Below, piece by piece: positions 4,463 to 9,205 of a DNA stretch of 40,707 nt. This stretch comes from a virus. Location of the stretch: IMG/VR virus record IMGVR_UViG_3300020410_000023, positions 1 to 40,707 of that record; one strand, written 5' to 3'. Every line of letters begins with the position of its first letter. Position 1 is the stretch's first letter. The notes under the pieces were generated by a model. It was not told the origin of the DNA. It did not search any database and saw nothing but the letters and a program-made list of their open reading frames with translations. The translations under genes and the position numbers were made by a program.

Positions 4463-4999
4463 ATGACAGTACTTAATGTATTAAGCACTAACACTATAGC
4501 AGCAGGAGCAACTGAATATCAGGTGATCCAGACTGGATTCTATAGAGTTGGTTCCACTGCAGGTGCAGCAACTGTAACCTTTGGTAGTGGTCCTGCAATC
4601 ACACTTGTGCAGAATGAGTTCATTCTTGTAAAAGGTGGTAAGCCAGGTCAAGCACAAATTATAAAGGCAGTCTCAGATTCTACTGGAGATTACTTTGTTG
4701 GACAACATCTACAAGATAGTTCTGCCAACCATCCATTCTCTGTAGGAGATTTTATCGCTGTTGTAGATAACGGTACTAGTCCTTCCATAGACAGTAACTT
4801 CTTATCAGCAGGAACGGCAGGTAAAAAAATAACTGCTGCAAATAATGTTAATATGTTAAGCACAGATATTGATTCATCAAGTGCGTCTGCTGATTATACA
4901 TATTCATCAGGCAATAAAGCACTAGTTCAACGCTGCGTAAAAATCGCTGCTGCTACCAGTGCGGTTATCGTAGAAGAAGTGCAAGTAGTTGGTGGGTAA
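4463..4999 (+). CDS. Conserved hypothetical protein, probable virion component
   Basis: This 178-residue protein is rich in Ala, Ser, Thr, Val and Gly with short alternating beta-type segments (ATEYQVIQTGFYRVG, NEFILVKGGKPGQAQIIKAV). There is no signal peptide or membrane segment. Low charge and position among neck and terminase genes suggest a small structural or decoration protein, but I recognise no named family. ATG at 4463 follows the gp16 stop by eight bases, and the stop overlaps the next start by one base (TAATG), so it is co-translated with its neighbours. Confidence 0.7.
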   Translation: MTVLNVLSTNTIAAGATEYQVIQTGFYRVGSTAGAATVTFGSGPAITLVQNEFILVKGGKPGQAQIIKAVSDSTGDYFVGQHLQDSSANHPFSVGDFIAVVDNGTSPSIDSNFLSAGTAGKKITAANNVNMLSTDIDSSSASADYTYSSGNKALVQRCVKIAAATSAVIVEEVQVVGG

Positions 5000-5832
5000 T
5001 GGAAACCTGTAAAAAGGGACAATACTATTGTAACACTGATAAAAAGTGTAAACCTATTCCTGATGGACATACAGTTCGTGAAGATGGGTTTCTAGTGAAA
5101 GAGGCGAAGAAGTACTACGGTGGTAAGAACACTAAACCTAAAGGGTTTGGAACTGACCAACGAGGACCTATCAATCAAGAAGCGGAACGTATTGTTCGTG
5201 GTATGAAAGCGAAGAGTGCAGGTCGTTTTAAAAAATTATATGGGAAACGTGATAAGGAAGTAATGTATGCTACCGCTAACAAGTTGGCACAAAAAGAACA
5301 ATTAAAAGTTATGTATTATCAGGATTTCATCAAATTAGTAGAAGGTAATCCTACAACACGTATGTTAACTAAGTCTAAGACAAAACAGACTGGTAATATA
5401 AGTGCTGATAGGGGATCTGATGAAAAAGCGAATCGAGCTAAACGTAAAGGTCTCGAAAAAGATTTAAAGAAAAAAGGCATTGGTTACAAAAAAGGTGTAG
5501 GAGAGTATAAATACAAATCCGATGATGGCAAAGAAGGTACAGGTCGTGAGGTTACATACCAAACAAGTCCTGGCAAAGGAATGTCAAAACGTAGATTCGG
5601 AAAAGTAATGCGTCGTTTAGGACGCAAGCATGGTCAAGAGTCAGTCATTACAAAAGACAAAGACAAACCTGCAAGACTACACGATACACAAAGTAAAAAA
5701 CCAGGCAAATCTGCAAATCTAGGGAAATCCAATCCAGGTAAAAATCCAAAGGGCGAAGGCGAGACATCAGGAACCAAAATTAGAAGTGGAAAATTACCAA
5801 AAACAAACAAAAAAGCGTATCACTACAATTAA
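4999..5832 (+). CDS. Lys-rich hypothetical protein with Cys-containing N-terminus
   Basis: This 277-residue protein has a compact N-terminal Cys module (CKKGQYYCNTDKKCKPIPDG; Cys 4, 11 and 17). A motif of this kind heads several uncharacterised marine phage proteins as I recall. The rest is very rich in Lys, Arg and Gly (for example KKKGIGYKKGVGEYKYKSDD, RRFGKVMRRLGRKHGQES) and probably partly disordered. The charge suggests contact with DNA or packaging in the virion, but no catalytic motif is visible. It starts on the last base of the preceding stop codon. A different frame remains open across its 3' end (see findings). Confidence 0.7.
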   Translation: METCKKGQYYCNTDKKCKPIPDGHTVREDGFLVKEAKKYYGGKNTKPKGFGTDQRGPINQEAERIVRGMKAKSAGRFKKLYGKRDKEVMYATANKLAQKEQLKVMYYQDFIKLVEGNPTTRMLTKSKTKQTGNISADRGSDEKANRAKRKGLEKDLKKKGIGYKKGVGEYKYKSDDGKEGTGREVTYQTSPGKGMSKRRFGKVMRRLGRKHGQESVITKDKDKPARLHDTQSKKPGKSANLGKSNPGKNPKGEGETSGTKIRSGKLPKTNKKAYHYN

Positions 5833-5928: not shown

Positions 5929-5936
5929 TATAAATA
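5929..5936 (+). promoter_or_regulatory. T4-type late promoter TATAAATA
   Basis: A perfect T4 late -10 element (TATAAATA) sits 25 bases before the ATG at 5962, in the gap after the Lys-rich gene. Such elements are read by host RNA polymerase carrying gp55 and activated by gp45, both encoded in this window. It would drive the 5962 gene and the PTOX cassette behind it. Confidence 0.65.
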
Positions 5937-5961: not shown

Positions 5962-6183
5962 ATGTCCCACTACACGGTTGGTTACCATAATAACCTAAAT
6001 CAGCATTTTGAAATATGCGAGTACGCCGATACCGCATATGACGCAATAGAACACAGTAAAGAGGATGTCTCGTATCTACACGAGCATCCTTCTTTTATTG
6101 ATTATTGCAAACAAATTCCAATCCGAACAGAGGTAGATAACGTCTTCCTTTCTAGGGCATGTGGAATACCAATGGGGTGTTAA
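5962..6183 (+). CDS. Small conserved cyanophage protein of unknown function
   Basis: This 73-residue acidic soluble protein starts MSHYTVGYHNN and has a helical middle (YADTAYDAIEHSKEDVSYLH). The ATG at 5962 is preferred over the in-frame TTG at 5938, which would lie inside the late promoter region. There is no signal peptide or membrane segment and no motif I can name. It is the first gene downstream of a TATAAATA late promoter, and its stop is two bases before the next small gene, so it belongs to the PTOX transcription unit. Confidence 0.7.
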   Translation: MSHYTVGYHNNLNQHFEICEYADTAYDAIEHSKEDVSYLHEHPSFIDYCKQIPIRTEVDNVFLSRACGIPMGC

Positions 6184-6185
6184 CT

Positions 6186-6290
6186 ATGAAAAATTTACCA
6201 ATAACATCCTCGTTAATTATCTTTGTAACTATAGGCACAGCACTATGGTTTTATCCCCAATACGCTTGGGCACATCCTATATTAGTATGA
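6186..6290 (+). CDS. 34-aa single-pass membrane peptide upstream of PTOX
   Basis: The ORF starts at ATG 6186, two bases after the preceding stop and after a G-rich stretch (GGGG) that could serve as ribosome binding site. It ends in TGA that overlaps the PTOX start as ATGA. The product has a short basic N-terminus (MKNLP), one hydrophobic helix at residues about 6-23 (ITSSLIIFVTIGTALWFY) and a short tail PQYAWAHPILV. The size and topology recall the tiny single-helix subunits of photosynthetic complexes, but I cannot match it to one. A cleaved signal peptide (after AWA) is another reading. Real coding is supported by the exact ATGA coupling. Confidence 0.6.
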   Translation: MKNLPITSSLIIFVTIGTALWFYPQYAWAHPILV

Positions 6291-6787
6291 AAAAATTTAA
6301 TACATGGGTCTTGGATACTACAATCTATATCCTTGACTTTCTCTACAGAGGTAGAGACTTCCAGAGGTTCTGGGTTCTAGAGGTGATAGCAAGAGCACCT
6401 TACTTTTCATTTATCAGTGTGTTACATTTTCGTGAATCATTAGGACTTAGAGGAGAAGAACACATATACTTAATGAAGGAGCACTTCTATCAAGCATTAA
6501 ATGAGACCGAGCATCTGGAGGAAATGGAGACTAGGGAGGGCAATAAGTACTGGATTGATCGGTTCTTTGCCAAGCACCTTGTTCTGGTTTATTATTGGAT
6601 CATGGTTGGGTATTATCTCATTGATCCTGTTAACGCTTATGACATCAACATGAAGATAGAGAAACATGCATACGAGACATATACAAAATATAGTGCATGG
6701 CATCCAGAAGATAAGAAGATAGCAGAGATAGCAGAAGACGAATTGAAGCATGCAAAAGAACTACACCACGCAATGTCAATGATATGA
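6287..6787 (+). CDS. ptox: Plastoquinol terminal oxidase (PTOX, alternative-oxidase family)
   Basis: This 166-residue protein is a di-iron quinol oxidase that would oxidise plastoquinol with O2 to water at the thylakoid membrane, acting as a safety valve for photosynthetic electrons. All six expected ligands are visible: E32 (LEVIARAPYF), E73 and H76 (LNETEHLEEME), E125 (KIEKHAYE), and E152 and H155 (DELKHA). The frame is open upstream to 6161. ATG 6287 is chosen because it overlaps the stop of the preceding 34-aa gene as ATGA and starts just before the conserved domain. Its own stop overlaps the next ATG, again as ATGA. PTOX is a known cyanophage auxiliary metabolic gene. Confidence 0.93.
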   Translation: MKKFNTWVLDTTIYILDFLYRGRDFQRFWVLEVIARAPYFSFISVLHFRESLGLRGEEHIYLMKEHFYQALNETEHLEEMETREGNKYWIDRFFAKHLVLVYYWIMVGYYLIDPVNAYDINMKIEKHAYETYTKYSAWHPEDKKIAEIAEDELKHAKELHHAMSMI

Positions 6788-6888
6788 TCGTCTGGAGTAT
6801 TGTATGGATGATTGCAATACTTGTCATTTGTGTGAGTGTTGTGATATACTACATATTAAGATTCGATCATTTCTGGCCAAATGAATAA
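6784..6888 (+). CDS. 34-aa single-pass membrane peptide downstream of PTOX
   Basis: The ORF begins at ATG 6784 inside the PTOX stop (ATGA) and ends at TAA 6888, overlapping the next gene by eight bases. The product is almost entirely one hydrophobic helix (residues about 2-25, VWMIAILVICVSVVIYYILR) with a short C-terminal tail DHFWPNE. It has the same length as the peptide upstream of PTOX but no clear sequence identity to it. The gapless ATGA coupling on both sides argues that it is translated. No family is recognised. A PTOX membrane partner or a tiny photosystem-like subunit is a guess. Confidence 0.6.
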   Translation: MIVWSIVWMIAILVICVSVVIYYILRFDHFWPNE

Positions 6889-7153
6889 GATTTTCATTAC
6901 ATGTATTGTTGGTGCAATAGCATGGTGTGCTGCAGCATCAGCAGGAACTCTTATTGATATTGATCGTGAACAATTTTATGATGATCTTTGGGAAGGATAT
7001 AGAAAGGCAGTCATAGAAAAAAATATGGAAAATGCCACCCCTGTTGAAGATTCTATAAATAGTGCACTAGAGGATTTTTGGGAGCAAGAACATGGGAGCA
7101 ATGGTTCCACCAAGTCGGAAGAGTTGTTACAACTTCCGAGTAGTGTCGATTGA
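6881..7153 (+). CDS. Small secreted hypothetical protein
   Basis: This 90-residue protein begins with a clear signal peptide (MNKIFITCIVGAIAWCAAASA, cleavage likely after residue 21). An acidic mature part follows (TLIDIDREQFYDDLWEGYRK ... SALEDFWEQEHGS). It is probably exported to the periplasm or thylakoid lumen. No enzymatic motif is visible. It overlaps the upstream 34-aa gene by eight bases and the downstream nuclease gene by 62 bases in another frame, so it is part of the PTOX-to-terminase transcription unit. Confidence 0.7.
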   Translation: MNKIFITCIVGAIAWCAAASAGTLIDIDREQFYDDLWEGYRKAVIEKNMENATPVEDSINSALEDFWEQEHGSNGSTKSEELLQLPSSVD

Positions 7154-7556
7154 TAGAGTTGTTGATGGTGATACCATTGATGTTTCAATAGACTTAGGAT
7201 TTGATCTTATTAAAAAAGAAAGAGTACGCGTAGCAGGTGTTGATACTCCTGAGAAGAGAACTAGAGACTTAGAAGAAAAAGCATTAGGTATTGATGCTAC
7301 TAACTGGATGAAGAAAAACTTAGAGGAAACTTTAGATGGAGATGAGGAACTTACTATCAGAACCGAACTCGTCGGTGGCATGGGTAAGTATGGTAGGCTT
7401 CTTGGTTGGTTATATGTCGGGGATGATGATGTATCACTTAATGAAAAAATGATTGATGAAGGATATGCATGGGCATATGATGGTGGTACAAAACAGAAAA
7501 ATTTTGAAGAGTTGAGAGAGATAAGAAGATCAAAAGGAACTTTACTTGAGGGATAA
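7092..7556 (+). CDS. Staphylococcal-nuclease-like (TNase) endonuclease
   Basis: This 154-residue protein has the SNase fold signature: a first strand with VVDGDTIDV (metal-binding Asp), RVRVAGVDTPEKR (catalytic Arg region and the DTPE motif) and YGRLLGWLYVGDDDVSLNEK leading to the C-terminal helix. It would cleave DNA or RNA using Ca2+. A GGGAG eight bases before ATG 7092 supports that start, although an in-frame ATG at 7104 is possible. Its stop overlaps the gene 17 start. Cyanomyoviruses often carry such a nuclease beside the large terminase; a role in host DNA degradation or packaging is inferred. Confidence 0.85.
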   Translation: MGAMVPPSRKSCYNFRVVSIDRVVDGDTIDVSIDLGFDLIKKERVRVAGVDTPEKRTRDLEEKALGIDATNWMKKNLEETLDGDEELTIRTELVGGMGKYGRLLGWLYVGDDDVSLNEKMIDEGYAWAYDGGTKQKNFEELREIRRSKGTLLEG

Positions 7557-9205
7557 TGGCACAACAGGAAGTATACTTAGGTAATCCTAATCTTAAAAAA
7601 GCAAACGTTTCTCAGAATTTTACTAAGAAACAAGTTGCTGAGTATTTGAAATGTGTAGAAGATCCTATCTACTTTATTAGAACATATATTAAAATCGTTT
7701 CACTAGACGAGGGTATCATACCATTTAAGATGTATGATTTCCAAGAGAGTATGGTAGGTAAGTTTCATAAACATAGATTTAATATTGCTAAGTTACCTCG
7801 TCAGTCTGGTAAATCAACAATCGTTACAGCATATCTATTATGGTATGTGCTATTCAATGATAATGTAAATGTCGCAATCCTCGCAAACAAAGCCCCAACT
7901 GCAAGAGAAATGTTGGGACGCTTACAATTATCTTACGAGAATCTTCCTAGATGGTTGCAACAAGGTATCTTGGGGTGGAACAAAGGAAGCTTGGAGTTGG
8001 AGAACGGAAGTAAGATCCTCGCTTCAAGTACTAGTGCTTCTGCTGTTCGCGGTATGTCCTTTAACATTATATTTCTGGACGAGTTCGCGTTCGTTCCGAA
8101 TCATATTGCTGAACAGTTCTTTGCTAGTGTGTATCCTACTATATCTTCTGGTAAAAAAACAAAAGTTATTATTATTTCTACACCTCATGGGATGAACCAA
8201 TACTATAAGTTATGGCACGATGCTGAACGTGGTGCTAATAACTATGTTGCAACTGAGGTTCATTGGTCTCAAGTACCTGGCAGAGATGCTAAATGGAAAC
8301 AACAAACTATTGAGAATACATCTGAAGCACAGTTCAGAGTTGAGTTTGACTGTGAGTTCTTAGGATCTGTTGATACTCTTATATCTCCTAGTAAATTAGG
8401 TGCTATGCCATATGATGATCCTATTAAACAAAACAGAGGTCTAGCAATATATGAAGAAAGAATAGAAGATCATAATTATATTGTAACTGTTGATGTATCT
8501 CGTGGTATTGGTGGTGACTACTCAGCATTCTGTGTTGTAGATACTACAACCATACCTTACAAATTAGTTGCTAGATATAAAAACAATGAAATAAAACCAA
8601 TAGTCTTACCTAATATTATTGTTGATGTATGTAAACATTATAATAATGCATACGTTCTATGTGAGGTAAATGATATAGGTGGACAGGTAGCAGACATCAT
8701 TCAATATGATTTGGAATATGAGAATCTATTAATGGCTGCTATGCGTGGTAGAGCAGGTCAACAACTAGGACAAGGTTTCTCTGGTAAGAAAACACAACTT
8801 GGTGTGAAGATGAGTACTGCAGTTAAACAAGTTGGTTGTTCTAATCTTAAAGCATTAATAGAAGATGATAAATTATTAGTTACAGATTATGACACTATAT
8901 CTGAACTGACTACCTTTATTCAAAAGGGTCAATCATTCCAAGCAGAAGATGGATGTCATGATGATCTTGCTATGTGTCTTGTTATTTTTGGATGGATGGC
9001 AATGCAAGAATACTTTAAAGAGATGCATGATAATGATGTTAGAGCAAGAATATATGCGGATCAAAGAGATGCTATAGAACAAGATATGGCTCCATTTGGA
9101 TTTATTAATGACGGATTAGAAGATGATGTTATTGTTGATGCACAGGGAGAAAGATGGGAACTCGCGGAATATGGTGATGTTCAACACATGCTTGACTTTA
9201 GGTGA
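7556..9205 (+). CDS. gp17: Terminase large subunit gp17
   Basis: This 549-residue protein is the DNA packaging ATPase and headful nuclease. Walker A is LPRQSGKST at residues 80-88, Walker B IIFLDEFAF at 171-179 and the coupling motif IISTPHG at about 206-212. The RNase H-like nuclease domain begins with TVDVSRGIGGD (Asp 313, Asp 321), and a final acidic site is in DGCHDDLAMCL. It is somewhat shorter than T4 gp17 (610 aa), as usual in cyanomyoviruses. Its ATG overlaps the nuclease stop. A late promoter follows for gene 18. Confidence 0.97.
   Translation: MAQQEVYLGNPNLKKANVSQNFTKKQVAEYLKCVEDPIYFIRTYIKIVSLDEGIIPFKMYDFQESMVGKFHKHRFNIAKLPRQSGKSTIVTAYLLWYVLFNDNVNVAILANKAPTAREMLGRLQLSYENLPRWLQQGILGWNKGSLELENGSKILASSTSASAVRGMSFNIIFLDEFAFVPNHIAEQFFASVYPTISSGKKTKVIIISTPHGMNQYYKLWHDAERGANNYVATEVHWSQVPGRDAKWKQQTIENTSEAQFRVEFDCEFLGSVDTLISPSKLGAMPYDDPIKQNRGLAIYEERIEDHNYIVTVDVSRGIGGDYSAFCVVDTTTIPYKLVARYKNNEIKPIVLPNIIVDVCKHYNNAYVLCEVNDIGGQVADIIQYDLEYENLLMAAMRGRAGQQLGQGFSGKKTQLGVKMSTAVKQVGCSNLKALIEDDKLLVTDYDTISELTTFIQKGQSFQAEDGCHDDLAMCLVIFGWMAMQEYFKEMHDNDVRARIYADQRDAIEQDMAPFGFINDGLEDDVIVDAQGERWELAEYGDVQHMLDFR

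Follow-up and report, generated by a model that had tools for sequence, protein, structure and literature searches.

ORF1, a 34-residue single-helix microprotein encoded directly upstream of the plastoquinol terminal oxidase (PTOX) gene of a cyanophage, belongs, on the evidence of its conservation, to a new family that is coding and under protein-level selection. We regard it, with a probability of about 55%, as a phage thylakoid microprotein that is co-translated with enzymes of the plastoquinone pool and may have an accessory or assembly/docking function as a small subunit. ORF2, the 34-residue single-helix protein encoded on the other side of PTOX, is unrelated to ORF1.

Gene Organization around PTOX

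The window, i.e., the whole stretch of 40,707 nucleotides that was analyzed, derives from a T4-like cyanophage, as assigned from its T4-type gene content, and is a fragment of 40.7 kb. The features of the PTOX locus are as follows.

5929..5936, + strand: TATAAATA, an exact match to a T4-late-promoter-like octamer, lying 26 nt ahead of the string's first gene; putative in function
5962..6183, + strand: phrog_8866 protein (T4-GC224 in isolates), 73 aa
6186..6290, + strand: ORF1, 34-aa single-helix microprotein, MKNLPITSSLIIFVTIGTALWFYPQYAWAHPILV; new family MK[ND]LP[IV]xS...A[WY]
6287..6290, + strand: ATGA junction of ORF1 and PTOX, stop-start overlap
6287..6787, + strand: PTOX, plastoquinol terminal oxidase, 166 aa; Pfam AOX, phrog_4235, conserved Glu/His ligands
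6784..6787, + strand: ATGA junction of PTOX and ORF2
6784..6888, + strand: ORF2, 34-aa single-helix protein, MIVWSIVWMIAILVICVSVVIYYILRFDHFWPNE; phrog_25423, part of the nuclease-side module and not of PTOX
6881..7153, + strand: ORF3, 90 aa; phrog_15947, with an EELLQLPS tail common to phrog_814
7092..7556, + strand: SNase-like endonuclease, phrog_452; the constant neighbor of ORF2
7556..9205, + strand: terminase large subunit gp17, the right border of the variable region

In the string phrog_8866–ORF1–PTOX–ORF2–ORF3–SNase–gp17, each neighboring pair overlaps or is at most 2 nt apart. The string sits between gp17 and a putative S-adenosylmethionine-lyase-like gene; the latter (4999–5832 of the window) is a cyanophage gene whose match to S-adenosylmethionine lyase (PF23780, 4e-6) falls below the curated cutoff. 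The ORF3 tail of EELLQLPS type runs across the start of the SNase gene. The same tail also closes unrelated N-termini in other phages, so the stretch of ORF3/SNase overlap serves repeatedly as a module.

A sequence-only reading of this DNA had described two 34-codon ORFs flanking PTOX and ATGA overlaps on both of its sides, and all of these are present at the positions listed above. The PTOX start that it placed at 6287 is in line with the records of isolates, whose listed matches start at residue 1 or 4. Its description of both small ORFs as unannotated holds for ORF1, but not for ORF2, which is an ordinary member of phrog_25423 matched over its full length (residues 1–34, E = 1.2e-19) and is annotated as PHM1_223 in P-HM1.

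The PTOX of the window carries an AOX domain (Pfam PF01786, 2.2e-11) and matches phrog_4235 (5e-94). Its candidate diiron ligands E32, E73xxH76, E125, and E152xxH155, which we assign from general knowledge of AOX, are invariant among 8 diverse phage PTOX sequences and make up the ligand set of an AOX/PTOX diiron center (four Glu, two His, and ExxH twice). PTOX passes electrons from the plastoquinone pool to oxygen, while the NDH-1 complex, of which NdhI and NdhP are subunits, supplies electrons to this pool (PMC10452541, PMC5082946). Sullivan et al. (2010) describe cyanophage PTOX and the plastocyanin gene petE as members of a mobile cassette (PMC3037559).

Conservation and Selection of ORF1

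Both flanking ORFs had been described as hydrophobic helices, and hydropathy gave a strong signal for ORF2 (19-residue mean 2.86) and a moderate one for ORF1 (1.81). AlphaFold2 modeled ORF1 as a single helix of residues 6–29 (mean pLDDT 86). The six frames of the window contain 77 ATG ORFs of 28–40 aa, of which 8 have a hydropathy of at least 1.8 and so reach that of ORF1; shape alone is therefore weak evidence. The case for ORF1 and ORF2 rests on conservation, which excludes a chance ORF.

The ORF1 family is 28–34 aa in length with the consensus M-K-[ND]-L-P-[IV]-x-S-[ST]-x-[IV]-[IL]-F-G...A-[WY], in which M1, K2, P5, F13, A27, and W/Y28 are nearly invariant. It occurs in two forms, a long one ending in AWxHPILV and a short one ending in AWV or AYV; 58 of 113 distinct peptides stop at about position 29, with no tail past A-W/Y-x. 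The family had no match in Pfam, PHROGs, NCBIfam, or PDB; two members gave weak Pfam HP1-holin matches (E 0.05), and nothing better was obtained in Pfam or NCBIfam. PDB profile searches with the ORF1 models A2 and A6 returned no photosynthetic chain among matches up to E 10, including the known small subunits of NDH-1, PSI, PSII, and b6f. ORF1 as a homologue of a known small photosystem, b6f, or NDH-1 subunit was rejected for lack of such a profile match.

Between sequence pairs differing by no more than 15%, in-frame pN/pS was 0.125 for the 29-aa form and 0.183 for the 34-aa form, while the shifted frames gave 0.75–4.7. When the copies were divided by context, the ratio was 0.209 for those overlapping PTOX, 0.233 for those linked to PTOX without overlap, and 0.237 for those without PTOX (shifted frames, 0.7–2.9). 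The low dN/dS anticipated by the sequence-only reading was thus observed for both ORFs, at a pN/pS of about 0.2 among near relatives for ORF1 and a dN/dS of about 0.18 for ORF2. A pure leader would leave its amino-acid sequence free of constraint, but coupled and uncoupled copies of ORF1 are equally constrained. This equality indicates that ORF1 most likely makes a protein with a role of its own, whose dose relative to the cargo may, we infer, be set by the coupling.

Distribution of ORF1

Relatives were collected from IMG/VR by one scan with ORF1 alone (124 confirmed) and another with the short forms (155 confirmed), giving 162 unique loci and 118 distinct peptides after duplicate removal, from cyanophages that are mostly uncultured. 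The seed alignment was built from PTOX-linked copies, so distant members elsewhere may be under-sampled. ORF1 also occurs, unannotated, in the cultured isolates S-SSM7 and P-RSM1 (HMM E 1e-10 and 3e-7; neither is in the model), which means that genes under about 40 codons have been missed in well-studied marine phages. It lies at 165554–165643 in S-SSM7, between T4-GC224 and petE, and at 133623–133712 in P-RSM1, between petE and PTOX. A tblastn search of isolate phages with one ORF1 peptide gave no match, whereas the profile searches did reveal homologues.

No relative was obtained when 84,980 genomes of bacteria and archaea were scanned by pattern, and a profile search of about 210 genomes of the Prochlorococcus genus and family (6, 61, 151) gave only chance-level short matches. 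Host PTOX loci had no ORF1 upstream. A limited literature collection contained no report on phage thylakoid microproteins or small cyanophage ORFs. The usual upstream neighbor of ORF1 is the phrog_8866 gene (110/159 loci). ORF1 was present in 39 of 71 loci of the window's own PTOX clade and in almost none of the Synechococcus-phage PTOX set. Its absence beside PTOX in close relatives, named beforehand as evidence against a link, was found for some of them, as P-SSM4 and P-HM1 lack it. Conversely, about 24 ORF1 loci have no PTOX nearby and often follow heme oxygenase; PTOX was found elsewhere on 0 of 20 such contigs, all of which are fragments.

Coupling of ORF1 to PTOX

In the PTOX-independent scans, PTOX was located within 1.2 kb downstream in 95 of the 114 ORF1 loci with enough flank. 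Over all loci, the exact 4-nt overlap was found in 114 of 132 PTOX-linked cases; among the other 18, the distance exceeds 300 nt in 12, most with a small gene of the T4-GC49 family in between. A Shine-Dalgarno sequence lies ahead of ORF1 in 111/162 loci, but ahead of the overlapped PTOX start in only 3/114. This makes translational coupling of PTOX to ORF1 likely, and PTOX probably receives its ribosomes from ORF1 directly after they terminate there.

On a quick PTOX tree, the ORF1-overlap state changed at least 28 times, a count that recombination within PTOX could inflate, versus 66–91 times with shuffled labels. The overlap thus appears to be inherited, yet often gained or lost. The many PTOX genes without ORF1 indicate that PTOX does not depend on it. 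At L119:2263, a frameshift fuses ORF1 into PTOX; the fusion may be natural or an artifact of sequencing error. In several loci, PTOX genes without ORF1 have a late-promoter-like octamer of the TATAAATA type approximately 6 nt before the ATG (L006:2977-3001, L081 (P-SSM4), L255, L262, L266, L267, L029, L076, and L080), and a leaderless late PTOX mRNA is predicted from this short distance.

Exchange of Genes behind ORF1

The same coupling was observed with other genes. An NdhI-only scan yielded 71 usable unique loci, with ORF1 upstream in 22 and the identical ATGA overlap in 12; the NdhI-coupled copies comprise eight distinct peptide sequences. Locus L384 carries NdhI behind ORF1 where L381, L361, and L365 carry PTOX, although the flanks are 93–96% identical; the alignment ends with the final base of the ORF1 stop and picks up again past the cargo. 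Locus L144 has the order ORF1-ATGA-ndhP-psaJF-psaC, where NdhP was named through its L339 homologue and PsaF/PsaJ by Pfam. The viral NdhP at L339:4922-5062 matches PDB 6khi_P (1.2e-7), and that at L144:3558-3692 is its relative by eye. A swap on the other side of the joint was found between L042 and P-HM1, in which PTOX and the downstream DNA are 96% alike while the sequences diverge exactly up to the PTOX ATG, upstream of which one has ORF1 and the other the phrog_8866 gene. Swaps at both the ORF1 stop and the PTOX ATG show that the stop-start joint is a recurrent exact exchange point; such overlaps serve as exact exchange joints for metabolic genes.

The overlap partners long enough to be named are PTOX (114), NdhI (12), NdhP (1), and one 31-aa microprotein; all but the last act on the plastoquinone pool or NDH-1, a linkage that may partly reflect the hypervariable gp16–gp17 region that these genes share. 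The non-overlapping neighbors are heme oxygenase before ORF1 and 2OG oxygenase, Nfu, or petE after it. A partner specific to PTOX should occur only with PTOX. ORF1 exists without PTOX nearby and is coupled in the same manner to NdhI and NdhP, so it is not a dedicated PTOX partner. The functional link that the earlier reading drew between PTOX and its two neighbors is therefore retained in part: for ORF1, a conserved peptide with one helix, the tie to a gene of photosynthetic electron transport holds but is not exclusive to PTOX, and ORF2 drops out.

ORF2 and the Nuclease Module

An ORF2-only scan located an SNase gene downstream in 70 of 80 ORF2 loci; contact between PTOX and ORF2 was seen in about 20 of these 80, mainly in the closest relatives of the window. 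Two genes separate PTOX from the ORF2 homologue in P-HM1, and P-SSM4, L008, and L009 carry ORF2 without ORF1. Proteins of phrog_814 are similar to ORF2 in their N-terminal half and to the end of ORF3 in their tail. On the gene order, ORF2 was rejected as a PTOX partner; it forms, as a small membrane protein in its own right, part of the adjacent nuclease/terminase module. The proposal that ORF1 and ORF2 are matched partners sandwiching PTOX in the membrane fits the arrangement in the window and its closest relatives (L001–L005), but the nuclease-side position of ORF2 and its occurrence without ORF1 make it very improbable.

Proposed Role of ORF1

In the favored reading, ORF1 would be a tiny single-pass protein in the thylakoid membrane of the infected cell. 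Its conserved Lys-bearing MKNLP end is presumably cytoplasmic, with helix 6–29 spanning the membrane and the A-W/Y end on the lumenal face. Co-translation would set it beside enzymes that feed (NdhI and NdhP of NDH-1) or drain (PTOX) the plastoquinone pool, and alternative or cyclic electron flow may be favored during infection. The pool shared by the overlap partners suggests that ORF1 helps to place or assemble enzymes there. More tentatively, this virus-only microprotein could be an interchangeable membrane subunit or adaptor, in which one conserved peptide is stop-start coupled to PTOX, NdhI, or NdhP and electron-flow modules are plugged in behind it. ORF1 is a concrete, testable candidate for the means by which cyanophages get their borrowed electron-transport enzymes into the thylakoid of the host.

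ORF1 could instead act as a translational leader only, whose good ribosome-binding site and overlap drive the following gene while the peptide is inert. The Shine-Dalgarno counts and the exchange of cargo exactly at the joint fit this explanation, as does petE in the same slot with its stop/start overlapping or touching; however, the constraint is equal without overlap, and the residues listed above are nearly invariant. A bare leader is hence rather improbable; ORF1 probably does have the coupling role, which is nevertheless insufficient as an explanation. Slightly easier to entertain, though still unlikely, is a general phage membrane peptide riding in the variable region. Single-helix phage peptides are often lysis regulators, holin-like proteins, or superinfection-exclusion factors, and the weak HP1-holin matches and the location of some copies beside 2OG oxygenase, Nfu, and heme oxygenase are consistent with such employment. 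The nameable overlap partners, all but the 31-aa microprotein being plastoquinone or NDH-1 genes, argue otherwise, and no lysis genes were recognized beside ORF1. Jointly, we give these two explanations about one third of the weight.

Another origin considered for ORF1 was plastocyanin, either as a decayed signal peptide or as a leftover of its N-terminus, since petE signal peptides end in LPAWA, ORF1 ends in AWA-like motifs, and petE occupies the same slot in other loci. This origin is scarcely credible: the peptides that stop without a tail have no mature product, and the coexistence of ORF1 with a complete petE in S-SSM7 and P-RSM1 contradicts it.

Comparison with Known Small Subunits

ORF1 has a close likeness in NdhP and NdhQ of cyanobacterial NDH-1L, which share its size class, single helix, and place in thylakoid electron transport; ORF1 even overlaps a viral ndhP in L144. 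It differs in having no detectable similarity to any solved chain and in not being found in host genomes. CydX/CcoM-type proteins are small subunits of terminal oxidases, and ORF1 resembles them as a single-helix protein of roughly 30–40 aa encoded beside a quinol oxidase. However, no sequence match was found, ORF1 is also paired with NdhI and NdhP, and PTOX, unlike the oxidases associated with CydX/CcoM, is a monotopic protein with a diiron center. The petE-PTOX cassette (PMC3037559) likewise has a small gene of electron transport immediately ahead of PTOX, overlapping or touching it, in the same variable region. ORF1 is instead a membrane microprotein unrelated to plastocyanin, and it is unannotated even beside petE.

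Other Small Proteins near PTOX and ORF1

A second single-helix microprotein (IPKWFYYTVISMG...) overlaps ORF1 at L297:2090-2185 and lies beside ndhP at L339:5049-5150; it weakly resembles PsbJ (E 0.3). A similar-looking microprotein is located upstream of PTOX in L227 and overlaps it. In L203, L205, and L242, which are of Synechococcus-phage type, short single-helix ORFs (e.g., TIVIFGTITSLVVWGLNNAYPI) occur just before PTOX and are possibly very distant relatives of ORF1 (E 2.9 for L242). In S-SSM4, the gene immediately ahead of PTOX (L168:2283-2492), annotated as hypothetical, encodes a PsbN domain (PF02468, 2.5e-9). Phage PTOX is often adjoined by a T4-GC49 protein gene, and a weak T4-GC49 relative (22% identity, E 8e-6) was found upstream of PTOX in Prochlorococcus (L402:2122-2427), which suggests that phages may have acquired both genes together.
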